Shown piece after piece: positions 1 through 10,710 of a stretch of 10,710 bases of DNA. Location of the stretch: NCBI GenBank assembly GCA_946625715.1, contig CAMOTK010000051.1:1-10710 (forward strand). Direction: 5' to 3'. A model generated the notes under the pieces. The model was not told the DNA's origin. It saw nothing but the letters and a program-made list of their open reading frames with translations, and did no database searches. A program made the position numbers and the translations under genes. The stretch's first letter is position 1, and each line of letters starts with the position of its first letter. The DNA comes from an uncultured Prevotella sp. Lineage in GTDB: Bacteria; Bacteroidota; Bacteroidia; Bacteroidales; Bacteroidaceae.

Positions 1-1
1 G

Positions 2-508
2 CACGAGAAGTTCTCGGGCAAGAGCATCAAATACTTCGACCCGCAGACCAACGAGTCGTACACACCGTATGTCATCGAGACCTCTATCGGCGTCGACCGC
101 ATGTTCCTCTCCGTCATGTGCCACAGCTATGAGGAAGAGAAGCTCGAGAACGGCGAGACCCGCGTGGTGCTCAAGCTGCCCGCAGCCCTGGCTCCCGTGA
201 AGCTGGCCGTCATGCCGCTCGTCAAGAAAGACGGACTGCCCGAGAAGGCCCGCGAGATTGTCAACAACCTGAAGTTCCACTTCAACTGCCAGTACGACGA
301 GAAAGACTCCATCGGCAAGCGCTATCGCCGTCAGGATGCCATCGGCACACCCTACTGCGTCACCGTCGACCACGACACGCTCCAGGACAACTGCGTCACC
401 CTCCGCTTCCGCGACACCATGGAGCAGGAGCGCGTGAACATCAGCGACCTCGCCTCTATCATCGAAGACAAGGTGAGCATCGTCTCGCTGCTGAAGAAAC
501 TGCAATAA
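2..508 (+). CDS. glyS: glycyl-tRNA synthetase, C-terminal part (5' end outside window)
   Basis: This is the last 168 residues of a single-chain class II glycyl-tRNA synthetase, which charges tRNA-Gly with glycine in the cytoplasm. The visible part opens in the catalytic domain. The stretch IETSIGVDRMFL (about residues 24-35 of the visible part) is class II motif 3, with the GxDR arginine that contacts ATP. It is followed by the C-terminal anticodon-binding domain (HGTP_anticodon fold), starting near KLAVMPLVKK and containing the typical stretches DSIGKRYRRQDAIGTP and VTLRFRDT. The reading frame is open from the first complete codon and ends in TAA at 506-508, so the gene is cut only by the window edge. 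The FKBP lipoprotein gene begins 25 bp downstream on the same strand with no terminator between them, which suggests cotranscription. The assignment is secure. The single-chain (alpha2) form rather than the two-subunit form is judged from the motif 3 and anticodon-domain arrangement. Confidence 0.95.
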   Translation, partial: HEKFSGKSIKYFDPQTNESYTPYVIETSIGVDRMFLSVMCHSYEEEKLENGETRVVLKLPAALAPVKLAVMPLVKKDGLPEKAREIVNNLKFHFNCQYDEKDSIGKRYRRQDAIGTPYCVTVDHDTLQDNCVTLRFRDTMEQERVNISDLASIIEDKVSIVSLLKKLQ

Positions 509-533
509 GCTACAGACAAAGCTATCTGAACAC

Positions 534-1145
534 ATGAAAATAGCAAAACTCTTTTGGCTCTTCGCACTGGTGCTCTTCTTCGTGGCTTGCAAGGAAGAGA
601 CCGACGAGTCGCAGGACGAGTATGCCAACTGGAAGGCGCGCAACGAGGCCTATCTCAAGACCATTGCGGCCAAGGCCGAGGCCGACCCCAGCAACTGGCG
701 CAAGCTCTGCACCTACTCGAAGGAAGCGGCCGTGGCCGACGACATCGGCGACTACATCTATGCCGAAGTGCTCGAGTCGGGCATCGGAACAGAGTCGCCG
801 ACGGGCTCCGACAGCGTGCGCGTCAGCTACATCGGTCGGCTCATGCCCACCGACAAGCATCCCCAGGGGCTGGTCTTCGACACCAGTGTCAATACCTCAA
901 ACGGCGGCGTGTTCGACTTCCGTACCAACGCCACGCGCGAGTTCTACATGTCTACACTGACCGACGGCTTCCTCACCGCACTGCTCTATATGCACCGCGG
1001 CGACCACTGGCGCATCTACGTGCCCTACCAGTTGGGCTATGGCTCGACCGTCTCCGGCCAGATTCCGGCCTACAGTGTCCTCACGTTTGAAATGGCGCTC
1101 CACGACTTCGCCCCTGCCGGCGAAGCCCTGAAGCCCTGGAGCTAA
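534..1145 (+). CDS. FKBP-type peptidyl-prolyl cis-trans isomerase, lipoprotein
   Basis: This 203-residue lipoprotein carries one FKBP domain, a family that catalyses prolyl cis-trans isomerisation and often acts as a folding chaperone in the envelope. Residues 2-18 form a short signal peptide with a hydrophobic core, ending in a lipobox (FVAC) whose Cys19 would be lipidated. The next residues are K-E-E, resembling the acidic surface-export tag of Bacteroidetes lipoproteins. A helical, charged linker follows (about 25-85). The FKBP domain spans about 93-192: VSYIGRL, VFDTS (F115, D116), YQLGYG (Y169), QIPAYS and LTFEMAL match the active-site landmarks. The usual pocket-floor tryptophan is replaced by phenylalanine (F146), and there is a roughly 8-residue insertion between FDTS and that position, so activity may be reduced. 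The gene follows glyS by 25 bp and ends just before a strong terminator. The family call is firm; catalytic activity and the physiological client are not known. Confidence 0.9.
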   Translation: MKIAKLFWLFALVLFFVACKEETDESQDEYANWKARNEAYLKTIAAKAEADPSNWRKLCTYSKEAAVADDIGDYIYAEVLESGIGTESPTGSDSVRVSYIGRLMPTDKHPQGLVFDTSVNTSNGGVFDFRTNATREFYMSTLTDGFLTALLYMHRGDHWRIYVPYQLGYGSTVSGQIPAYSVLTFEMALHDFAPAGEALKPWS

Positions 1146-1157
1146 GCACAATGAGCA

Positions 1158-1197
1158 AAGAAAAAAGCGAAGGAATTCACTCCTTCGCTTTTTTCTT
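1158..1197. terminator. Rho-independent terminator, probably bidirectional
   Basis: A perfect 17-bp inverted repeat (arms 1158-1174 and 1181-1197) encloses a 6-nt loop (1175-1180). The core AGCGAAGGA/TCCTTCGCT is preceded by a run of six A and followed by a run of six T, so either strand gives a hairpin plus U tract. It lies 12 bp after the stop of the FKBP gene and about 30 bp past the stop of the convergent small gene at 1228-1368. It therefore most likely ends transcription from both sides. Confidence 0.9.
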
Positions 1198-1227
1198 GGC
1201 ATACAACGGACATTGCCGGCCAGACTG

Positions 1228-1368
1228 TCATCCAAAATAGTGGGGCTCGGACTTCTGCGGGTCGGCCTTCAGGCGGTTGAGCAGCTTGGCATATTTCTCG
1301 GCCAGGTCCTGATTGCGCGCCGTCAGACGGTGGTTCACCTCGCGCATCTTTGTCAGTTGCTCTATCAT
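1228..1368 (-). CDS. 46-residue predicted coiled-coil protein of unknown function
   Basis: This short frame starts with ATG at 1368-1366, one base after the TAG of the upstream beta-barrel gene, and ends in TGA at 1230-1228. I do not recognise the protein. Its central part shows hydrophobic or Asn residues at a strict 3-4 spacing: L5, M8, N12, L15, N19, L22, Y26, L29, L33, with charged or polar residues elsewhere (for example KMREVNHRL and EKYAKLLNRLK). That is a canonical two-stranded coiled-coil pattern. Asn at two core a positions is what favours parallel dimers in leucine zippers. The C-terminal tail (KADPQKSEPHYFG) is polar and Pro-containing. Codon use is GC-rich like the neighbouring real genes, and the frame sits in the expected place between the barrel gene and the terminator. 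There is no signal peptide or membrane segment, so it should be cytoplasmic. The main doubt is its shortness. Confidence 0.68.
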   Translation of the reverse strand: MIEQLTKMREVNHRLTARNQDLAEKYAKLLNRLKADPQKSEPHYFG

Positions 1369-1369
1369 A

Positions 1370-1999
1370 CTAAATCTTGTAGCCCAGCGTGATGGTGAAG
1401 ACGCTGTTGCGCGACTTGTCGCCAGAACCGGATATCACTTTGGTGCAGCCGAAGTTGTAGCGGGCGTCGAGTACCACGTTCTTGAACTCATAGCTCAGAC
1501 CGATGGGAATGGAGAGGTCGAACTTGTTGAGCTTGACGTCGTCGTTGCCATCATAAGCAAGTGCCAAGAAGCGGTCGACGTCGATGCTCTGGTCTCCCTG
1601 CTTGATTTTAGTGTTCATGCGCAAGGCTGGCTGCACACCGATGCGCAGTGCCAGACCTGGCAGGGGGTAGTAGCCGACGGTCAGGGGCAGCGCCGTATAG
1701 TAGTTGTTCATCGTCGACTTCACGCCTCCGTCGTTATACTTTGCTCCCTGGTCGAGAAAGAGCAGACCGCCGGCAAAGCTGAAGTTCTCGGTGAAGTAGT
1801 GTTCTATCTCGACGCCGTAGGTCAGGTTCACCTTCGCCTTGGCGTCCTTGTCGTTGGTCAGGTTGGAAATGGAAATACCAACACGCGGCTGGAAGGTGGT
1901 TTCGCCCTCACTGTGCTGAGCGTTTATACCAAGGCTGCTGCCCACGAAGAGCAGGCCTGAGAGCAGGATACGTTTCAAAGTTCTGTTGTCCATAGTCAT
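1370..1999 (-). CDS. porin-family outer-membrane beta-barrel protein
   Basis: This 209-residue exported protein looks like a small outer-membrane beta-barrel of the kind abundant in Bacteroidetes (OMP_b-brl_2 type). Residues 1-27 form a signal peptide: a basic start (R6, K9, R10), a hydrophobic core (ILLSGLLFVGSSLG) and a likely cleavage site after INA or INAQ. The rest is made of alternating polar and hydrophobic strands with aromatic girdle residues, for example VNLTYGVEIEHYF, FSFAGGLLFL, LPLTVGYYPL, LALRIGVQPALRM, LSIPIGLSYEF, VVLDARYNFG and the final VFTITLGYKI. These are separated by short polar loops, consistent with about eight strands. The start at 1999 is used; the ATG two codons later (1993) is possible and would not change the signal peptide. 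The EamA gene ends 8 bp upstream and the small coiled-coil gene begins 1 bp downstream, so the three are probably one transcript. The ligand or role cannot be read from the sequence. Confidence 0.85.
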   Translation of the reverse strand: MTMDNRTLKRILLSGLLFVGSSLGINAQHSEGETTFQPRVGISISNLTNDKDAKAKVNLTYGVEIEHYFTENFSFAGGLLFLDQGAKYNDGGVKSTMNNYYTALPLTVGYYPLPGLALRIGVQPALRMNTKIKQGDQSIDVDRFLALAYDGNDDVKLNKFDLSIPIGLSYEFKNVVLDARYNFGCTKVISGSGDKSRNSVFTITLGYKI

Positions 2000-2007
2000 T
2001 TGTTTTT

Positions 2008-2943
2008 TTATTTGTTGTTATTAATGGTTGCTTCTTTCTTTTCCATATCGGCACGGCTGCGGCTCTTCGTCACCAGCCACACACCGCCGAACACCAAGAC
2101 CACGGCCAAAGCGTGGGATGGCTTCAGCACACCGAGCCCCGTGAGCACACTGACCACCACAGCCACCAACGGCTGCACGTAGTTGTAGACCGACACCACC
2201 GTGGGCCGGAGCGTCTTCTGGCCTATCATGGTGAGAATATAGCCTAAATAGGTGCCGCAGAACACCACGTAGAACGCTTCCCACCATGTTTTGGCGGGAA
2301 TAGGCTGCGACACGATGTCGTAGACGTGATGGCTGGTGAAGGGGAAGATGAGCAGCGAGGCCCAGAGGAACATCCACTTGTTGGTGGTGAACACCGAGTA
2401 GCGGCGGATGAGCGGATTGAAAAGCGACAGATAGAGTGCAAACGAGAACTGAGCGCCCAGGCAAAGCAGGTCGCCGCGAATGTCGCCCACCTTGTCGCTG
2501 GCATGGGCTGCACTGGTCAGAATCAGTATCAAAGCGCCGCTGCAGCCCATGAGCACGCCCAGGGCTTTCTTGCCCGTGATAGGCTCTTTCAGGATGATGG
2601 CGGCCAGAATCATGGCGAAGATAGGCATCGACGTGGTGACTATCGAGGCATTGATAGGCGAGGTGATGGAGAGGCCAATGGTGTAGCAGCACTGATTGAA
2701 CACCAGCCCGAATACGGCGGCACCGATAAACAGCAGCTTGTCGCGCGTCGGCACATGCTCGTGCTTCACGAACAGCGACGTCAGCCAGAACAAGATGCAA
2801 CCGCCCAAGACGCGAAACGTCACCATCGTCAGACCGTCGATGCCGTGGGTCATGGCGTCTTTGCCCAGCGGAGCCATCAGGCCCCAGAATGCGCATGCGC
2901 CAAACATCGAGAGGTGGGCTATCAGTGGCTTTTTGTTGTCCAT
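2008..2943 (-). CDS. EamA-family (DMT superfamily) membrane transporter
   Basis: This 311-residue inner-membrane protein has about ten hydrophobic segments arranged as two EamA repeats (about residues 9-143 and 157-293), the usual size and layout of drug/metabolite transporters. Family landmarks include the N-terminal FGACAFWGLMAPLGK, the repeat 1 stretch ASIVTTSMPIFAMILAAIILKE (about 99-120; the KE after TM4 is typical), and the repeat 2 counterpart VSVYNYVQPLVAVVVSVL (about 250-267). In repeat 2 the acidic residue expected after this helix is absent (GLGVLKPS). The C-terminal tail (about 295-311) is charged and cytoplasmic. Members export amino acids, nucleobases or other metabolites; the substrate cannot be predicted here. 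It is the first gene of a minus-strand operon, with a TATATTTG box about 28-35 bp upstream of its ATG. It is transcribed away from the ATPase/DUF4435 pair. Confidence 0.9.
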   Translation of the reverse strand: MDNKKPLIAHLSMFGACAFWGLMAPLGKDAMTHGIDGLTMVTFRVLGGCILFWLTSLFVKHEHVPTRDKLLFIGAAVFGLVFNQCCYTIGLSITSPINASIVTTSMPIFAMILAAIILKEPITGKKALGVLMGCSGALILILTSAAHASDKVGDIRGDLLCLGAQFSFALYLSLFNPLIRRYSVFTTNKWMFLWASLLIFPFTSHHVYDIVSQPIPAKTWWEAFYVVFCGTYLGYILTMIGQKTLRPTVVSVYNYVQPLVAVVVSVLTGLGVLKPSHALAVVLVFGGVWLVTKSRSRADMEKKEATINNNK

Positions 2944-2970
2944 TTATAACTAAAACTTAAAATTTCGTTG

Positions 2971-2978
2971 CAAATATA
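2971..2978 (-). promoter_or_regulatory. -7 box (TATATTTG) of the EamA operon promoter
   Basis: On the minus strand this reads TATATTTG, an exact match to the Bacteroidetes TAnnTTTG -7 element. Transcription would start near 2964, giving a leader of about 20 nt before the ATG at 2943. No clear TTG -33 element is seen at the usual distance, so the promoter may be weak or may need an activator. Confidence 0.55.
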
Positions 2979-3001
2979 CGCATTATTTGGGAATTATTGT
3001 G

Positions 3002-3009
3002 TATATTTG
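3002..3009 (+). promoter_or_regulatory. -7 box (TATATTTG) of the ATPase/DUF4435 promoter
   Basis: TATATTTG exactly matches the Bacteroidetes TAnnTTTG -7 element. Transcription would start near 3015, leaving a leader of about 15 nt before the ATG at 3031. This favours 3031 over the upstream in-frame ATG at 2968. The nearest TTTG upstream (2986-2989) is only 12 bp away, shorter than the usual 19 or so, so no proper -33 element is assigned. Confidence 0.6.
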
Positions 3010-3030
3010 CCCAATAAAAACCAACGGATT

Positions 3031-3864
3031 ATGCAAAAATACGCTGATTATATCAAGAAAATCGAGATTGATTCGCTTTGGAGCGGCAAGAAACACATTG
3101 TGTGGGAACTCAGTCCGCGGGTGAATATTCTCAGTGGCACCAATGGTCAGGGCAAGAGTACCATCCTGAACAAGGTGGTGAAAGGACTTTCTGCCGGCGG
3201 CGAGTTTCCCAGCCACATGCTCAAAGGCGTGCGCATCGAAGTAGTTCCCGAGGATGCCCGCTGGATTCGCTACGACATGATCCGTTCGCTCGACAGCAGC
3301 CTGACGCAGGTGTTGGGCGACGACGAGACGGCGCTGCGCCAGGTGCTGCCCGTCATCAGGGGCGGCGGCGGTTCGCTGCTCGACTACCAGCTCTACCACC
3401 TGCAGCGCAAGTACTTGGACTATCAGGTGAACATTGGCAACCGCATCATCGCTTGTCTGCAGGAAAGCAAGGCCGACGAGGCCCAAAAGCTGTCGCAGAA
3501 GAAGACGCGCTTCCAGGACATGGTCGACGAGCTGTTTGCCGAAACAGGCAAGCACATTGTCCGCACGGAAAACGAAATCCGCTTCACCCAGATTGGCGAA
3601 CTGCTCACGCCCTACCAGCTCTCCAGCGGCGAGAAGCAGATGCTCATCATCCTGCTCACCGTGCTGGTGGAGGACGAGCTGCCCTACGTGCTGTTTATGG
3701 ACGAGCCGGAAGTGTCGCTCCACATGGAGTGGCAGAAACGGCTCATCGACCTCATCCTCGAACTGAACCCCAACGTACAGATTATTCTTACCACCCACTC
3801 GCCGGCCGTCATCATGAACGGCTGGATGGACAGCGTGACCGACGTAGCAGACATCACCTCATGA
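3031..3864 (+). CDS. ABC-type ATPase (AAA_15/AAA_21-like), partner of a DUF4435 protein; AriA-like
   Basis: This 277-residue soluble ATPase has the ABC/SMC/Rad50 type of nucleotide-binding domain. Walker A is GTNGQGKST (36-44), the signature motif is LSSGEKQ (197-203), Walker B is VLFMDEP (220-226, catalytic E225), the D-loop is EVSLH (227-231), and the switch histidine lies in TTHSP (H256). A helical insertion of about 150 residues separates Walker A from the signature motif. There is no long coiled coil and no fused nuclease. ATPases of this family pair with DUF4435 proteins, and the PARIS defence system (AriA + AriB) has this composition; AriA proteins, as I recall, are considerably longer. 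The start at 3031 is chosen because it follows a promoter box; the ATG at 2968 lies upstream of that box. The stop overlaps the next start as ATGA, so the partners are translationally coupled. The ATPase fold is certain; a PARIS-like role is inference. Confidence 0.88.
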   Translation: MQKYADYIKKIEIDSLWSGKKHIVWELSPRVNILSGTNGQGKSTILNKVVKGLSAGGEFPSHMLKGVRIEVVPEDARWIRYDMIRSLDSSLTQVLGDDETALRQVLPVIRGGGGSLLDYQLYHLQRKYLDYQVNIGNRIIACLQESKADEAQKLSQKKTRFQDMVDELFAETGKHIVRTENEIRFTQIGELLTPYQLSSGEKQMLIILLTVLVEDELPYVLFMDEPEVSLHMEWQKRLIDLILELNPNVQIILTTHSPAVIMNGWMDSVTDVADITS

Positions 3865-4859
3865 GCCAACGGTTAAGGGACAACATCGACAGTCGTTACT
3901 TCGAGGCGGCCAATGCGCTGCGCTCGAAGAAAGCACGGCGTAGGATTGTGGCCTACGTCGAGAGCTACGACGACATCTACTTCTGGCGCACGGTGCTCGG
4001 CGTGTTCGAGAACGAGGAGCGCTACTTCGAAGTGATGCTGCCCTCGAAGGTGAACCTGACGCGCGGCAAGAAGTCGGTGCTCATGAACTTTGTGGGCGAA
4101 CATGTGGGGCCCGACATGATTGCCTGCGTCGATGCCGACTACGACTACCTGCTGCAGGGCGTCACGCCCCAGTCGAAGCGGGTGCTTGGCAGTCCCTACG
4201 TATTCCACACCTACGTCTACGCCATCGAGAACTACCAGTGTTTTGCGCCGTCGCTCCACGATGTGTGCGTGGCCGTGACGCTCAACGACCATCGCATCTT
4301 CGACTTCCAAGACTATTTCCGTCAGTTCAGCGAAGCCTGCTTCCCGCTGTTCGTCTGGTCGGTATGGGCCTATCGCAAGGGCTATCACAACCGCTTCTCG
4401 CTCACCGACTTCAACCGCGTGACCGACCCGGGCGGCTTCTCGGTGCAGAGTCCGGAGCAATCGATTGCCAACATCCGACGGAAGGTGCAGACCAAGGTGC
4501 GCGAGCTGCAGCGGCAGTATCCCGACAACAAGGAAAACTACCTGAAACTGAAAGACGAACTGAAAGCACTGGGCGTGACGCCGCAGACCACCTATCTCTA
4601 TATGCAGGGCCACCACCTGTTCGATACCGTTGTGGCGCCTATCCTGACTAAGGTCTGCAACTTGCTCAGACAAGAACGGCAGAACGAAATCTATCATTCT
4701 GCCGCACATAAGACGCAAAAGCGCAATGAGATGTCGTGTTATGAGAACTCGCTGCAAGACGTGAAGGCGATGCTCAAGAAGAACAACGGCTACGTGATGA
4801 GCGAGCAGTTCCGCCGTCTGCAAGACGACGTGCGTCGCTACTTAGACAAAAGTCTCTAA
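3861..4859 (+). CDS. DUF4435 / Toprim-like protein, AriB-like putative nuclease
   Basis: This 332-residue soluble protein fits the DUF4435 family. The N-terminal half has a Toprim-like arrangement: a hydrophobic strand ending in an acidic residue (IVAYVESYDDIYFW, E34 with D37 and D38), then a strand followed by a D-x-D-x-D cluster (IACVDADYDYL, D91, D93, D95). These are the positions where Toprim nucleases bind metal. Next come YVYAIENYQCF (E123, N124), typical of DUF4435, and a basic helical region (about 198-240, with IRRKVQTKVRELQRQ). The stretch MQGHHLFDTVV (about 248-258) resembles the conserved GH-x-LF motif. The start overlaps the ATPase stop by 4 bp, a strong sign that the two form a complex. 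In PARIS the corresponding protein AriB is a Toprim nuclease that cleaves host tRNA once released by its ATPase. Whether this protein is a nuclease is not shown. Its 3' end overlaps manA by 18 bp on the other strand. Confidence 0.85.
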   Translation: MSQRLRDNIDSRYFEAANALRSKKARRRIVAYVESYDDIYFWRTVLGVFENEERYFEVMLPSKVNLTRGKKSVLMNFVGEHVGPDMIACVDADYDYLLQGVTPQSKRVLGSPYVFHTYVYAIENYQCFAPSLHDVCVAVTLNDHRIFDFQDYFRQFSEACFPLFVWSVWAYRKGYHNRFSLTDFNRVTDPGGFSVQSPEQSIANIRRKVQTKVRELQRQYPDNKENYLKLKDELKALGVTPQTTYLYMQGHHLFDTVVAPILTKVCNLLRQERQNEIYHSAAHKTQKRNEMSCYENSLQDVKAMLKKNNGYVMSEQFRRLQDDVRRYLDKSL

Positions 4860-5801
4860 GAAGCGCACGCTTCCCTCAACCTTTATTTCATTCACCGTGG
4901 CCGGAACGAGCACCGTTTCGCCCATGTTGAGCGTGGTCTGCTGGCCGTCGACGGTCAGTGTGCCTTGTCCCTTCACGCCGATGAGGATGACAAAGGCGTC
5001 GAGCTCCGAGTAGTCGAGCGTCATGGGCTCGTCGATGTCGTAGACGGCAGTGGTGAAGAAGGGGCACTGCACCACCTGCTCGGGCACGTTCTTCTCCAGT
5101 TTGTAGGCCGTTCTGTAGTCGGGCAGCACGCGGTAGTCGATGCTTTCGGCAGCCTCTTTCGTGTGCAGTTGGCGCAGGTTGCCGTCCTTGTCGCGCCGGT
5201 TGTAGTCGTAGATGCGGTAGGTGACGTCGCTGGTTTGCTGAATCTCGGCCACGAAGCAGCCCGCGCCGATGGTGTGGATGCGGCCTGCCGGGATGAAGAA
5301 GACGTCGCCTTCCTGGACGTGGTACTGCGACAAAGCCTCGGTGATGGTGTCGTCGGCCACCATCTGTGCATATTGCTCGGGCGTGATTTGCTGCTTCAGT
5401 CCGCTGAAGAGTTGGGCTTCCGGCTCGGATGGCAGCACGTACCACATCTCCGTCTTGCCGCGCGACTTGCCCTGTCGGTGGGCCGTCTCGTCGTCGGGAT
5501 GCACCTGGATAGACAGGTCGCGTTGGGCATCGATGAACTTGATGAGCAGCGGAAACTCGTTGCCGAAGCGCTCGTAGTTGTCGCGTCCCACCAACTTTTC
5601 GCCCAAGCGGGCCACCAGCTCGTTGAGCTTCATGCCTTTGTACTGGCCTTCCTTCACAATCGTTTCGTTACCCTGAACACCCGAAATCTCCCAGCTCTCG
5701 CCCACTTGGTCGAGCTGTTGGTCGAGCTGTTTGAAGGGGATAATCTTGTCGCCGCCCCAAATGGTCTGCTTGAGCAGCGGTTCAAACTTTATTAACTCCA
5801 T
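4842..5801 (-). CDS. manA: mannose-6-phosphate isomerase, type I (cupin)
   Basis: This 319-residue cytoplasmic enzyme interconverts fructose-6-phosphate and mannose-6-phosphate, feeding mannose catabolism or GDP-sugar synthesis for surface glycans. It is a type I phosphomannose isomerase of the short bacterial (Bacillus-like) kind. The zinc ligands are visible in order: SIQVHPDD (Q99, H101), KTEMWYVL (E118) and IPAGRIHTIG (H176), followed by the catalytic region TSDVTYRIYDYNR (R196). The N-terminal WGGDKI and GESWEIS stretches are also typical. A second cupin-like half (about 235-319) ends in LIGVKGQGTLTVDG and ETVLVPA. It lies 56 bp downstream of trkH on the same strand. The gap has no terminator, so it may be read from the dxs operon; a one-mismatch -7 box (TTTATTTG, 5816-5809) lies so close to the ATG that its own promoter is doubtful. 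Its last 18 bp overlap the end of the convergent DUF4435 gene. Confidence 0.94.
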   Translation of the reverse strand: MELIKFEPLLKQTIWGGDKIIPFKQLDQQLDQVGESWEISGVQGNETIVKEGQYKGMKLNELVARLGEKLVGRDNYERFGNEFPLLIKFIDAQRDLSIQVHPDDETAHRQGKSRGKTEMWYVLPSEPEAQLFSGLKQQITPEQYAQMVADDTITEALSQYHVQEGDVFFIPAGRIHTIGAGCFVAEIQQTSDVTYRIYDYNRRDKDGNLRQLHTKEAAESIDYRVLPDYRTAYKLEKNVPEQVVQCPFFTTAVYDIDEPMTLDYSELDAFVILIGVKGQGTLTVDGQQTTLNMGETVLVPATVNEIKVEGSVRFLETFV

Positions 5802-5857
5802 GTACTTTCAAATAAAAACAGTTGTTATTATCAATACGATTACGGGCGAATGCATAC

Positions 5858-7315
5858 TTAGTTTTCTTTCCAAAATGAGCGTGTGAAGAGCACCAGCACC
5901 GTCATGATTTCCAAACGTCCCATGAGCATGAGCAGGCAGAGCAGCCACTTGATGGCGTCGGGCAGAACCGACCACGACATCGAGGCGCCGATGTTGTTGG
6001 TGAGCGACGGTCCGACGTTGCTCACGCAGCTCAGTGCAATGCTGATGGCATTGGTATTGTCGACGCCTGCAGTTATCATGATGGCCGTGGTGACGAGCAA
6101 CATCATGACCGTGAGCGTGAAGAAGGCAAAGAGCGAGATGAGCTTAGTCTGCGAGATGTTCTGGCCGTTGACCTTCACGGGCAGCACGGCGTTGGGGTGC
6201 AGAATCTGGCGGAAGTTGTTGCTCATCACCTTGATGAGCATGAAGCCGCGTATGCACTTGAAGCCGCCGCTGGTGCTGCCGGCGCAGGCTCCCAGATACA
6301 TGACGACGCCGAGGATAATCCACGTGATGTGCGGCCAGAGCGCCACATCGTCGTTGAACATGCCGGTGGTGGTCATGAACGACACCACCTGGAACAGGGC
6401 GTTTCTGAAGGCATGCTCCAGGTCGTAGCCCAGGCGGGTGAAGAGCAAGTACATAATCCAGAGCGTGGCGCCCAGGATGACGCAGACGTAGAGCTTGAAC
6501 TCCGAGTTCTTCAGCAGCGTGCCTAATCTCATCTTGAACAGCCCCATATATAATAAGGTGAAGTTGATGCCCGAGAGAAACTGGAAGACGATGGCGATGT
6601 AGTCGATGGTGGCCGACTGGAAGTACATGGTGCCTTCGTTGTTGATGGAGAAGCCGCCCGTGGCCGTGGTGGTCATGGAGTAGTTGGTGGCCTCGAACCA
6701 GTTCATGCCAGCCGCCCAGAAGGCGAGTCCGCAGCCAATGGTGAGCAGCATGTAGACCGACCAAATCCACTTCGACGACGTAGACAGTCGGGGGTGCATC
6801 TTCGAGCGCATGGGGCCAGTGGCCTCGGCTGCGAACACCTTCACGCTGCCGCCCACGAGCGAGGGCAGAATGGCAATGGTGAAGAACACGATGCCCAAGC
6901 CGCCAATCCACTGCAGGAGCGAGCGCCAGAAGAGAATGCCGTGGGGCAGCACCTCGACGTTGTCGAAGATGGTGGCGCCGGTGGTGGTGAAGCCCGACAT
7001 GGACTCGAAGTAGGCGTCGGTGATGTTGCTGATGGAGCCGTTGATGAGGAAGGGTAGGGTGCCGAACAGACTGAAGACAATCCACACCGACGTGACGACG
7101 AGGTAGGCGTCGCGGCGCGAGAGCGAGTTCTCAGCCCCTTTTCCGAAGAAGAGGAACACGAAGGCCGAGCCCAGCGTGGTCATCATCGACAAGAGGAAAG
7201 CCAGCGCATCGTCTTCGTTGAAGGCGAAGGCAATGGCCATGCAGATGCCCATGAAGAAGGCCTCGATGAAGAGCAGCGACCCGATGATTTTCGCTATGAT
7301 GCGGAAGTTTACCAT
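5858..7315 (-). CDS. trkH: Trk-type potassium uptake channel subunit TrkH
   Basis: This 485-residue inner-membrane protein is the ion-conducting subunit of the Trk potassium uptake system. Four M1-P-M2 repeats are visible through their filter loops: SGFTTTGAT (107-115), MTTTATGGFS (214-223), FMTTTGMF (313-320) and SNVGPSL (432-438), each with the filter glycine (G113, G220, G318, G435). QWIGGLGIV (135-143) and the intramembrane loop of repeat 3, LGACAGSTSGGFK (341-353), which gates the pore in TrkH, are also present. Length and motif order are those of full-length TrkH/KtrB-family members. The start ATG at 7315-7313 overlaps the end of trkA by 7 bp, so the channel and its regulatory subunit are translationally coupled. 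Nothing suggests a defect. The TrkH name rather than KtrB rests on length and on pairing with a two-domain TrkA. Confidence 0.95.
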   Translation of the reverse strand: MVNFRIIAKIIGSLLFIEAFFMGICMAIAFAFNEDDALAFLLSMMTTLGSAFVFLFFGKGAENSLSRRDAYLVVTSVWIVFSLFGTLPFLINGSISNITDAYFESMSGFTTTGATIFDNVEVLPHGILFWRSLLQWIGGLGIVFFTIAILPSLVGGSVKVFAAEATGPMRSKMHPRLSTSSKWIWSVYMLLTIGCGLAFWAAGMNWFEATNYSMTTTATGGFSINNEGTMYFQSATIDYIAIVFQFLSGINFTLLYMGLFKMRLGTLLKNSEFKLYVCVILGATLWIMYLLFTRLGYDLEHAFRNALFQVVSFMTTTGMFNDDVALWPHITWIILGVVMYLGACAGSTSGGFKCIRGFMLIKVMSNNFRQILHPNAVLPVKVNGQNISQTKLISLFAFFTLTVMMLLVTTAIMITAGVDNTNAISIALSCVSNVGPSLTNNIGASMSWSVLPDAIKWLLCLLMLMGRLEIMTVLVLFTRSFWKEN

Positions 7316-8667
7316 AACCCGTTTTTCTTGAAATATTTCTCCACCTTGTCGAGGTTGTGCTCGTGGCAGAAGACCATGACCGAGTCGCCCTCTTCAATCT
7401 GCGTGTTGCCGTTGACGAGGATGCCCTTGCCGTCGCGCACCAGTCCGCCGATGCTGACGCCCGAGGGCAGTCCGAGCGCCTTGACGGGCTTCTTCGTGAC
7501 GCGCGAGCCTTCGGCGGCCACAAACTCGGCCACGTCGCTGTCGACGGTCATGAGCGAGCGCATGTTGCGCACGTCGGCCTTGAGCATCATCTGGAAGATG
7601 TGGCTGGCGGCCACGGTCTTCTTGTTGATGATGGTGCCGATGTCGAGCCCTTCGGCCATGTTGACGTAGTCGAGGTTTTCAATCATGGCCACCGTCTTGC
7701 GCACGCCCAGTTTCTTGGCCGTGAGACAAGCCAGGATGTTGGTTTCGGCGTTGCCGGTGAGTGCCACGAAGGCCTGCGTGTTCTTGATGCCCTCCTCTTC
7801 GAGCAGACCGAGGTCGCGCCCGTCGCCGTGAATGACCATGATGTTGCTGTTGTCGAGCAGCTGGTTGAGCTTCTCGCAGCGGTCGATGTCGCTCTCGATG
7901 ATTTTCACGTTCATGTAGTCGGGCATGATGAGTGCCGCCCTGACGGCGGTGCTGCCGCCACCCATGATGATGACGTTCTGCACGTCTTCGTAGTGCTCCT
8001 TGCCCACCACCTTGCGGATGTAGGGTATATACTCGCGCTGGGTCATGAAGTAGGCCAGGTCGTTCTCTTTCAGTTCGTCGAGACCGCCCGGTATGATGGT
8101 TTCGCCGTTGCGCTTGATGGCCACCACGTGGTAGGGGTCGTCGGGTCCGCAGAGGTCCTTGAGTGGCTGGTTGAGCACCTCGCACGACTTTCTGAGCTTG
8201 ATGCCGAGGAGCACGAGTGCGCCGTCGTGTACGTCCCAGCGCTGTCGGGCCCACGACATTTTCAGTCCGCTGATGATGTCGTCGGCGGCCAGCACCTCGG
8301 GGTAGATGAGCGAGTCGATGCCCAGGTTCTTGAAGAACTCCTGGTTTTGCGGTGCGAGGTATTCAGACTGGTCGATGCGTGCCACCGTCTTCTTGGCGCC
8401 CAGCGAGTGGGCCAGTATGCAGGCGGTGATGTTCTTCGTCTCCAGAGGCGTGACGCCCACGAAGAGGTCGGCACTGCCTATGCCCACTTCCTTCAGAGCC
8501 TTGAGGCTGGTGGGCGAGGCGTTGTAGGTCATGATGTCGTAGCGCGAGTCGAGGTCGGCCAGCCTGTCCTCGTTCTCGTCGATGAGCACGCAGTTGTGGT
8601 TCTCTGTTGAGAGCAGCTTCGAGAGGTGTGTGCCCACGCGCCCGGCACCGGCAATGACAATCTTCAT
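7309..8667 (-). CDS. trkA: Trk potassium uptake regulatory subunit TrkA (two RCK domains)
   Basis: This 452-residue cytoplasmic protein forms the nucleotide-gated ring under TrkH and controls potassium uptake in response to NAD(H) or adenine nucleotides. It holds two RCK (TrkA-N plus TrkA-C) units. The first Rossmann domain begins at once with IAGAGRVGTHL (5-15) and has the acidic ribose-binding residue in CVLIDEN (D30). Its TrkA-C part (about 140-220) includes LKENDLAYFMT. The second Rossmann domain has a modified glycine motif, IIMGGGSTAV (233-242), with VKIIESD (about 254-260) and VIHGDGRDLGLL (about 278-289). The final TrkA-C part ends in IEEGDSVMVFC (424-434). The start lies 3 bp after the dxs stop, and the end overlaps trkH by 7 bp. 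The two-domain length is usual for TrkA, unlike the single-domain KtrA. Confidence 0.95.
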   Translation of the reverse strand: MKIVIAGAGRVGTHLSKLLSTENHNCVLIDENEDRLADLDSRYDIMTYNASPTSLKALKEVGIGSADLFVGVTPLETKNITACILAHSLGAKKTVARIDQSEYLAPQNQEFFKNLGIDSLIYPEVLAADDIISGLKMSWARQRWDVHDGALVLLGIKLRKSCEVLNQPLKDLCGPDDPYHVVAIKRNGETIIPGGLDELKENDLAYFMTQREYIPYIRKVVGKEHYEDVQNVIIMGGGSTAVRAALIMPDYMNVKIIESDIDRCEKLNQLLDNSNIMVIHGDGRDLGLLEEEGIKNTQAFVALTGNAETNILACLTAKKLGVRKTVAMIENLDYVNMAEGLDIGTIINKKTVAASHIFQMMLKADVRNMRSLMTVDSDVAEFVAAEGSRVTKKPVKALGLPSGVSIGGLVRDGKGILVNGNTQIEEGDSVMVFCHEHNLDKVEKYFKKNGLW

Positions 8668-8670
8668 AGG

Positions 8671-10560
8671 CTATTTGGCTGTTGGCTGTATGACGTTCTT
8701 GATACTTTCCACGTCGATGCCCACGATGTGCATCAGTTCGGGCACCTTGCCGTGTTCTACAAACTTGTCGGGCAGACCCATGCGGGTGAGCTGAGGCTGA
8801 TAGCCGTGGTCGGCAAACCACTCGAGCACGGCCGAGCCGAAGCCGCCCTGCCGGACGCCGTCTTCGATGGTGACCACGCGCTGGAACTTGCGGCCGACCT
8901 CGTGGAGCAGCTCTTCGTCGAGCGGTTTCACGAAGCGCATGTCGTAGTGGGCCACATCGTCGATGCCCAGTTCCTCGATGGCGCGCTCCACGAAGTTGCC
9001 GGTGGTGCCGATGCTGAGCACGGCCAGACGGCTGCCGTCGCGCAGTCGGCGTCCGCGTCCGACGGGAATCTCCTCGAGCGGACAGTGCCAGTCGTTGGTG
9101 ACGCCGCGCCCGCGGGGGTAGCGAATGACGAAAGGCCCCTTGTCGGGCAGTTGCGCGGTGTACATCATGCGGCGCAGCTCCTGCTCGTTCATGGGGGCGG
9201 CGATGGTCAGGTTGGGAATGGGGCGCAGGAAGGCCAGGTCGAAGGCGCCGTGGTGTGTGGGGCCGTCTTCGCCCACGAGTCCGGCGCGGTCGAGACAGAT
9301 GACCACCGGCAGCCGCAGTATGGCCACGTCGTGGATGATGTTGTCGTAGGCGCGCTGCGAGAAGGCCGAGTAGATGTTGCAGAAGGGCTGCAGTCCGTCT
9401 TTGGCCATGCCGGCCGAGAAGGTGACGGCGTGGCCTTCGGCAATGCCTACGTCGAAGGTGCGGTCGGGCATGGCTTCCATCATGATGTTCATGGAGCAGC
9501 CAGTGGGCATGGCCGGCGTGACGCCCACGATGCGCGGGTTCTGCCGGGCCAGTTCCAGAAGCGTGTGTCCGAAGACGTCCTGATACTTAGGTGGCAGGTT
9601 GGGGTCGTCGTCGCTGATGCGCTCGCCCGTGTCGGGGTCGAACTTTCCAGGTGCGTGCCACACGGGCTTATAGTCTTCGGCCGGCGCATAGCCGTGGCCC
9701 TTCTTCGTGTGCAGGTGGAGCAGCTTGGGGCCGCTCATGTCCTTCAGCTGTCGGAGTATGCGCACCAGCTCCTTCACGTTGTGGCCGTCGAAGGGTCCGA
9801 AGTAGCGTATGTTCATGCCCTCGAAGATGTTCTGCTGGTGCGAGATGGCGCTCTTGATGGCGTTGTTCAGTCGGATGAGCCCCTGCCGGCGGTCGTCCTT
9901 GAGCATGCCCTTGCGGCGCAGCCACTGTCCGGCCTTGAAGCGCAGGGCGTTGTAGGTCTCGTTGGTGTTCAGTCCGAGCAGATACTGCTGCATGCCGCCC
10001 ACGGAGCGGTCAATCGACATGTCGTTGTCGTTGAGGATGATGAGCAGGTCGTTGGGGCTCGACGAGGCGTTGTTGAGACCCTCGAAAGCCAGTCCGCCCG
10101 ACATGGCGCCGTCGCCGATGACGGCCACTACCTTGCGGTTGTCCTTCGATGCCACGGCCATGCCCAGTGCGGCCGAGATGCTGTTTGAGGCGTGGCCGCA
10201 GATGAAGGCGTCGTACTCGCTCTCCTCGGGCGAGGGGAAGGGCTTCAGGCCGCCCAGCTTGCGGTTGGTCTTGAAGCGCTCGCGGCGCCCGGTCAGAATC
10301 TTGTGGCCATAGGCCTGATGGCCCACGTCCCACACAATGCGGTCTTCGGGGGTGTTGAACACATAGTGTAGTGCCACGGTCAGCTCCACCACGCCGAGGC
10401 TCGACGCCAGGTGGCCGGGGTTGACCGAGAGCTCCTGCACGATGGTTTCGCGCAGTTGGTTGCACACTTCGGGCAGTTGCTCTACCGTCAGTTTCCGCAG
10501 GTCTTGCGGGTAGTCTATGCTGTTTAAAAGTTCAAAATTGCCTTTTTCCACTGTATTCAT
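8671..10560 (-). CDS. dxs: 1-deoxy-D-xylulose-5-phosphate synthase
   Basis: This 629-residue thiamine-diphosphate enzyme condenses pyruvate and glyceraldehyde-3-phosphate into 1-deoxy-D-xylulose-5-phosphate, the entry step of the MEP isoprenoid pathway and a precursor for thiamine and pyridoxal. Visible landmarks are [19 protein letters not shown] and [12 protein letters not shown] near the N-terminus, [14 protein letters not shown] (about 120-133), and the ThDP/Mg motif [17 protein letters not shown] (149-165). NDNDMSI (177-183), FGPFDGHN and the transketolase-like [18 protein letters not shown] follow, with a C-terminal domain ending near the stop at 8673-8671. The start ATG at 10560 is chosen; an in-frame TTG at 10578 overlaps the promoter -7 box and cannot be used from that promoter. 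It is the first gene of the dxs-trkA-trkH run, with only 3 bp before trkA. Length is normal and no key residue is missing. Confidence 0.96.
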
Positions 10561-10575
10561 AAAGTCATTTGGTGG

Positions 10576-10606
10576 CAAAGTTACTATAATTTATGCACAT
10601 GACAAA
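10576..10606 (-). promoter_or_regulatory. Bacteroidetes-type promoter of the dxs operon
   Basis: On the minus strand, TTTG at 10606-10603 and TAACTTTG at 10583-10576 match the -33 (TTTG) and -7 (TAnnTTTG) elements, separated by 19 bp, the normal distance. Transcription would start near 10570, leaving only about 10 nt before the ATG at 10560. The -33 element lies within a perfect 12-bp palindrome, ACAAAATTTTGT (10602-10613), which could be an operator or could arise from an overlapping opposite signal. Confidence 0.72.
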
Positions 10607-10629
10607 ATTTTGTGCTGTTTATTTTCTTA

Positions 10630-10710
10630 ATGAGTCAACGCACTCAGACGGTGTCTTGTCAAGAAAAATTGCTAAAATTTAACACTTCGCGACCGACCAT
10701 TCTAGAAAAG
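10630..10710 (+). CDS. possible start of a divergent gene, cut by the window end
   Basis: From the ATG at 10630 a frame stays open for 27 codons to the end of the window, beginning MSQRTQTVSCQEKLLKFN. It points away from dxs, as a divergent gene would. The upstream DNA is AT-rich, and AAATTTTG (10605-10612) differs from the -7 consensus by one base, at a distance that would leave a leader of about 11 nt. Against it: the codons are AT-rich at third positions, unlike every gene in this window; the frame is short enough to be open by chance; and I recognise no family. Otherwise 10584-10710 is plain AT-rich intergenic DNA with no RNA gene that I can see. Confidence 0.2.
   Translation, partial: MSQRTQTVSCQEKLLKFNTSRPTILEK

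Follow-up and report, generated by a model that had tools for sequence, protein, structure and literature searches.

Is a gene pair built like an anti-phage switch still a defense system when nearly every genome of a bacterial family carries it? This question is raised by a window of 10,710 nucleotides (the whole stretch of DNA analyzed here; contig CAMOTK010000051.1 of assembly GCA_946625715.1, positions 1 to 10,710) from an uncultured Prevotella sp. of the family Bacteroidaceae, to which GTDB assigns both Prevotella and Bacteroides. Its forward strand encodes, at positions 3,031 to 4,859, an ABC-type ATPase (A) followed by a DUF4435/Toprim protein (B), the arrangement of AriA and AriB in the phage anti-restriction-induced system (PARIS). 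Our data describe a compact, vertically inherited module of PARIS architecture, and we hold, with moderate confidence, that it is most likely a resident abortive-infection system of the whole family. A homolog of B was found in 379 of 399 family genomes (95%), in 200 of the 207 of good quality, and in 28 of 30 genera, the two negative genera being represented by one incomplete genome each.

A PARIS-type pair of compact build

A preliminary description, made from the letters of the sequence, had reported an ABC ATPase with a full motif set joined by a 4-bp overlap to a DUF4435-like gene, and both frames and motifs are indeed present. A (277 amino acids, positions 3,031 to 3,864) and B (332 amino acids, 3,861 to 4,859) share the bases ATGA; they and all features below lie on the forward strand. 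The ATPase motifs comprise Walker A (residues 36 to 43, positions 3,136 to 3,159; G36, N38, G39, G41, and K42), the signature LSSGEKQ (residues 197 to 203, 3,619 to 3,639), the Walker B/D-loop region (residues 221 to 227, 3,691 to 3,711; D224, E225, P226, and E227), and the H-switch histidine H256 (3,796 to 3,798). Each of these is kept by at least 99% of 151 homologous pairs, no two of which share an identical B protein; the set omits duplicates, non-family homologs, L167 (a second copy), and loci in which A or B is missing or A aligned piecewise (L102, L021, L129, L131, L133, L144, L164, L165, and L168; at L021, L129, L131, and L133, A was seen in a separate scan).

Profile searches gave the expected domains, with AriA and AriB of PADLOC on top. 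A scored 65.6 bits against AAA_21 and 60.9 bits against AAA_15, and B scored 196.3 bits against DUF4435; these values exceed the thresholds of the PARIS rule of Rousset et al. 2022, given there as an AAA_15 or AAA_21 ATPase beside DUF4435 with at least 32, 27, and 27 bits (PMC9122126), and the two genes overlap. B has a Toprim nuclease-type core with the glutamate and the DxD motif: E34 (3,960 to 3,962), D38, and D91 and D93 (4,131 to 4,139) are invariant across all 54 DUF4435 sequences aligned. The acidic set first proposed had also included D95, and here it has to be trimmed. E34, D91, D93, and D95 are all conserved in at least 99% of the 151 pairs, but the D95 equivalent is missing in 15 of 15 fused homologs, in one homolog from another family (f106), and in one of two plasmid homologs. 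Since other lineages dispense with D95, the Toprim core comes down to E34 and D91xD93. With their catalytic residues kept so strictly, neither A nor B looks like a relic.

Single-chain structure models of A and B matched Escherichia coli AriA and AriB (PDB 8ux9, 8v45-8v49) best, ahead of the next families, and the B model contains a Toprim core with Toprim-like order of strands and helices, whose absence would have spoken against the assignment. A thus combines intact ABC ATPase motifs with a predicted AriA fold. Identity in the structural alignments was 19 to 20% for A and 7 to 8% for B; a plain Foldseek search with the B model ranked AriB first with an E value of only 4.4e-3 and a template modeling (TM) score of about 0.45, the separation being clearer with VIA-align. 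By sequence, AriB was not found in the PDB with B alone, with the B profile (E up to 1), or with a Klebsiella plasmid B, and the link between B and AriB therefore rests on profiles and folds. Domains, gene order, profile matches, and predicted folds agree with the PARIS-type pairing first proposed.

In E. coli PARIS, AriA forms a hexamer that keeps up to three AriB bound. AriA in turn is recognized by phage proteins such as Ocr, and AriB, once free, forms a dimer that cleaves tRNA-Lys and others by a two-metal mechanism lost in E26A (PMC11455837; PMC12409363). The window pair resembles this system in the order of ABC ATPase and DUF4435/Toprim protein, both folds, the catalytic residues, and the tight linkage, and the conservation of E34, D91/D93, and the ATPase motifs makes it likely that the chemistry, including AriB catalysis, is the same. 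K60 and K64, which hold the tRNA in AriB, lie 34 and 38 residues past E26 (same sources); the conserved G69-K70 of B lies 35 to 36 residues past the catalytic glutamate, a similar spacing that may be taken as a hint only. By analogy, A would assemble and hold B, the Toprim nuclease, in an inactive state until a trigger alters A and B is released and dimerizes; free B would then cut tRNA or other RNA and thereby stop translation; holding, release, and RNA target are all inferred from E. coli PARIS. If B were instead a DNA nuclease like the Toprim proteins of OLD or Gabija, the pair would guard the cell against invading DNA, which we consider improbable.

A is also, as the preliminary description had noticed, shorter than AriA (277 versus 464 amino acids for the structurally solved protein). 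The blocks of AriA that match by sequence are residues 4 to 52 and 362 to 439, corresponding to positions 6 to 54 and 189 to 268 of the A profile, and the A model places a short helical hairpin (residues 116 to 168) where AriA has its long insertion.

Family-wide presence, inheritance, and loss

All 27 genera tested for A have it, and A adjoins B in 137 of 138 fetched loci (the window's own included), the remaining locus ending at a contig edge. By our tally, 33 of 35 genomes of the same genus besides the window's own have a B homolog, compared with 2 of 24 genomes belonging to the order's remaining families. In a phylum-wide draw, the B profile matched 4 of 296 genomes, three from the family and one outsider (B 36% identical); in an order-wide draw, DUF4435 matches occurred in 79 of 393 genomes (six belong to the family) and in 2 of 14 named control genomes. 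Among the best 80 of 229 loci, the named relatives are mostly Prevotella, Xylanibacter, and uncultured Prevotellaceae. A control search for RpoB succeeded in 29 of 30 genomes and failed only in the window's own, which is 65% complete.

Tree distances of the concatenated pair (A+B) and of RpoB correlate at 0.78 (permutation P 0.001; 27 genomes, 25 genera, genome G066 left out), with Mantel values of 0.62 for A and 0.73 for B. The two trees share 12 of 24 splits without G066, compared with a mean of 0.21 and a maximum of 2 after label permutation on all 28 genomes. Inclusion of G066 lowers the correlations to 0.05 for A (P 0.38), 0.34 for B, and 0.23 for A+B (P 0.034), with 11 of 25 splits shared, and speaks against a simple vertical story. 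This genome (genus g31; loci L166/L217) has a divergent pair, with B about 30% identical, and five of five g31 genomes score low; its pair looks as if it had been replaced by a foreign copy. The comparison of related genomes thus found near-universal, mostly vertical conservation with few absences. This is half of what the preliminary description had set against a PARIS-like role; the other half, an established non-defense function of the clade, was not found.

Six of the seven good-quality genomes without B also lack A. In G118, the DMT and MscS genes are adjacent and both pair genes are cleanly absent, and four genomes of one genus have a common alternative gene block beside MeaB (judged by the lengths of open reading frames only), which probably reflects one loss. 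In the seventh genome, G332, A lies 235 bases from the contig end, too short for B, and B is therefore probably off the contig. The pair is dispensable, rarely lost, and within the family lost as a unit; occasional joint loss suggests the dispensability that a defense system would have.

The pair stands alone among housekeeping genes, as first described, with FKBP, an outer-membrane barrel, and an EamA transporter upstream and phosphomannose isomerase (PMI), TrkH, TrkA, and Dxs downstream. The 3' ends of B and the convergent PMI gene overlap by 18 bp (4,842 to 4,859). In the window, as in six further genera, a divergent EamA-cluster transporter gene lies beside A; in a Bacteroides finegoldii record, the order is alpha-2-macroglobulin, DUF1573, MeaB, DMT transporter, A, B, and MscS. 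The pair has a guanine-cytosine (GC) content of 0.57 and a third-position value (GC3) of 0.79 to 0.80, inside the ranges of the other window genes (0.55 to 0.63 and 0.77 to 0.88).

A promoter-like TAnnTTTG box, which we take to be the motif known as the -7 box, lies at 3,002 to 3,009, 21 nt ahead of the start codon ATG of A. Such a box precedes A in 94 of 151 pairs, related sequences being counted separately (200 single-base shuffles: mean 10, maximum 18), and in 81 of these 94 it lies 16 to 33 nt before the start of A. Of a two-box promoter in the window, only TAnnTTTG is clear, the spacing of an upstream TTTG being judged unusual. A 9-bp inverted repeat, CAAATATAC ... GTATATTTG, spans 2,971 to 3,009, in the gap that separates the divergently transcribed EamA gene from A, and a CAAAnnTA...TAnnTTTG pairing is present in 15 of 151 upstream regions (shuffles: mean 0.16, maximum 2); the repeat may consist of two divergent -7 boxes or serve as an operator.

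Related lineages and mobile copies

A short AriA is ordinary, the PADLOC AriA profile PDLC04164 having 253 positions. This is the best PADLOC profile of the window A (183 bits); the window B reaches 117 bits on its companion PDLC04165 and 229 bits on the general AriB profile PDLC02983. The compact PADLOC AriA/AriB agree with the window pair in length class and gene order, but a pair from another family (f106, L234) fits them far better (328 and 290 bits). Given this difference and the preference of the window B for PDLC02983, the window pair forms a separate sub-lineage.

Fused AriAB genes of about 530 amino acids recur in several other Bacteroidales families (L220-L229, L232, L233, and L235-L237), and a search with a fused protein gave matches that include Coprobacter and Parabacteroides. 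Like the window pair, the fused form (PADLOC PDLC02982) combines a short ATPase with DUF4435, retains E34 and the DxD motif, and recurs within several families; unlike it, it is a single gene, is placed very distantly in the B tree, and lacks equivalents of D95 and K70. In 9 of 15 loci examined, it adjoins a gene of one UbiA-family cluster (one cluster member checked in Pfam), presumably MenA. PtuA of Septu and retrons pairs with the HNH nuclease PtuB; it was rejected as a counterpart of A, the partner here being a DUF4435/Toprim protein and A matching the AriA profile best.

In family f113, DUF4435/AriB homologs of 36 to 39% identity occur with no AriA beside them (L177, L178, L183, L190, L230, and L231). 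They retain E34, D91, and D93, and all four f113 genomes with a match hold B without an adjoining A; a search for A in these four genomes was negative in three and gave a single weak, partial match (E 8.6e-5) in the remaining one.

PARIS-like pairs also exist on plasmids and in viral contigs, as might be expected if the window pair were an ordinary accessory copy, recently acquired and set among housekeeping genes by chance. Annotated phage records gave no match, and four viral contigs matched at 26 to 34% identity, none close to the resident copy; the two viral-contig pairs examined have 32 to 35% GC among genes of 38 to 61%. Seven plasmid records match, five from Klebsiella/Acinetobacter at 21 to 23% identity and two from Bacteroidaceae at 48 to 51%. 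These two plasmid-labeled records carry the resident pair (L238 and L239; NZ_OY725943.1 and OY726067.1). One is annotated and has the gene order of other family genomes, so it is probably a mislabeled piece of chromosome; the other is unannotated over the stretch. A second B match was counted in 21 of 399 family genomes, some possibly being one gene in two pieces. Both second copies fetched are about 25% identical to the core; that of G024 has 29% GC among genes of 30 to 41%, that of G069 an inconspicuous 42 to 43% among genes of 42 to 51%. Three of the four distant pairs examined are GC-poorer than their surroundings, the G069 copy being the exception, and base composition does not mark mobile copies cleanly. 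Beside the resident pair there are thus PARIS-like pairs from other lineages, at much lower frequency. The window pair itself has neither the sporadic distribution nor the mobile context and foreign composition of accessory, mobile defense. Its presence in 379 of 399 genomes, its RpoB-like tree bar one genus, its native GC and GC3, and the lack of a match in annotated phage records led us to reject a mobile origin, and a recent acquisition, contradicted by the same family-wide presence, tree, and composition, is scarcely credible.

Defense or cellular physiology

We favor resident defense over physiology, which keeps a sizeable chance, because studied PARIS acts against phage and because occasional joint loss fits. 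The trigger would probably be common to many phages or infections of the family rather than one narrow phage protein, and a general trigger would explain why the pair is rarely lost.

Several observations weigh against this. Defense systems are usually patchy. E. coli PARIS is sporadic, and the window pair is family-core and mostly vertical; its 95% in the sampled family contrasts with the 5.2% of genomes overall published for PARIS (PMC9122126). Between Walker A and the signature, A is about 175 residues shorter than E. coli AriA, which makes it unlikely that the trigger surface is the same. The presumed sensor A diverges less than B, the mean pairwise tree distances being 1.05 for A, 1.54 for B, and 0.41 for RpoB. 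Furthermore, the median ratio of nonsynonymous to synonymous substitution rates (dN/dS) is 0.057 over 87 pairs for A and 0.070 over 115 pairs for B, within the range of the neighbors Dxs (0.047, 33 pairs), TrkH (0.074, 35 pairs), and PMI (0.077, 14 pairs), with TrkA at 0.031 (41 pairs) and FKBP at 0.179 (27 pairs), and gives no sign of an arms race on average. Only pairs whose B proteins are at least 85% identical enter these medians, dS being misleading for distant ones, and the pairs are not mutually independent.

Near-fixation with mostly vertical inheritance, housekeeping-like dN/dS, and a sensor evolving more slowly than its effector would all suit a domesticated switch, in which a latent RNase answers an internal trigger (stress, DNA damage, or a translation signal) and slows growth or remodels the tRNA pool of uninfected cells. 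So would the native composition, the recurring promoter box, the lack of phage-record matches and of close copies in viral contigs, and the orphan B genes of f113, which indicate that B can persist without this ATPase. We nevertheless regard such a role as somewhat unlikely: some good-quality genomes do without the pair, which is hence not essential, its flanks vary between genera with only the EamA-type transporter recurring widely (seven genera), and the divergence is 2.6 times that of RpoB for A and 3.8 times for B. To our knowledge, every studied relative is a defense system. In its boldest form, which we advance tentatively, the family ancestor would have captured a PARIS-type switch for core physiology, as a programmed brake on translation, set off by an internal or very general trigger, in most gut Prevotella and Bacteroides.

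PARIS is already known, and detection tools would probably name the window pair. In the open-access literature searched, as far as its texts were accessible, we found no description of a family-core PARIS pair; in their accessible parts, PMC12135933 names PARIS as one of the systems predicted in a B. thetaiotaomicron strain and PMC10799925 mentions it only in comparison, and a supplementary prevalence figure of PMC9122126 may already contain the signal. Defense-finding software probably lists one PARIS per genome, which would hide the core-gene status, and the core pair may inflate counts of acquired defense in gut bacteria.

Abortive-infection systems are thought to be patchy and to be gained and lost fast. 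A near-fixed, mostly single-copy pair under strong purifying selection in a dominant gut family therefore raises the question why a latent growth-arrest switch is so seldom dropped. Either this family possesses a genuine core of innate immunity, or such "defense" machines have a normal cellular job.
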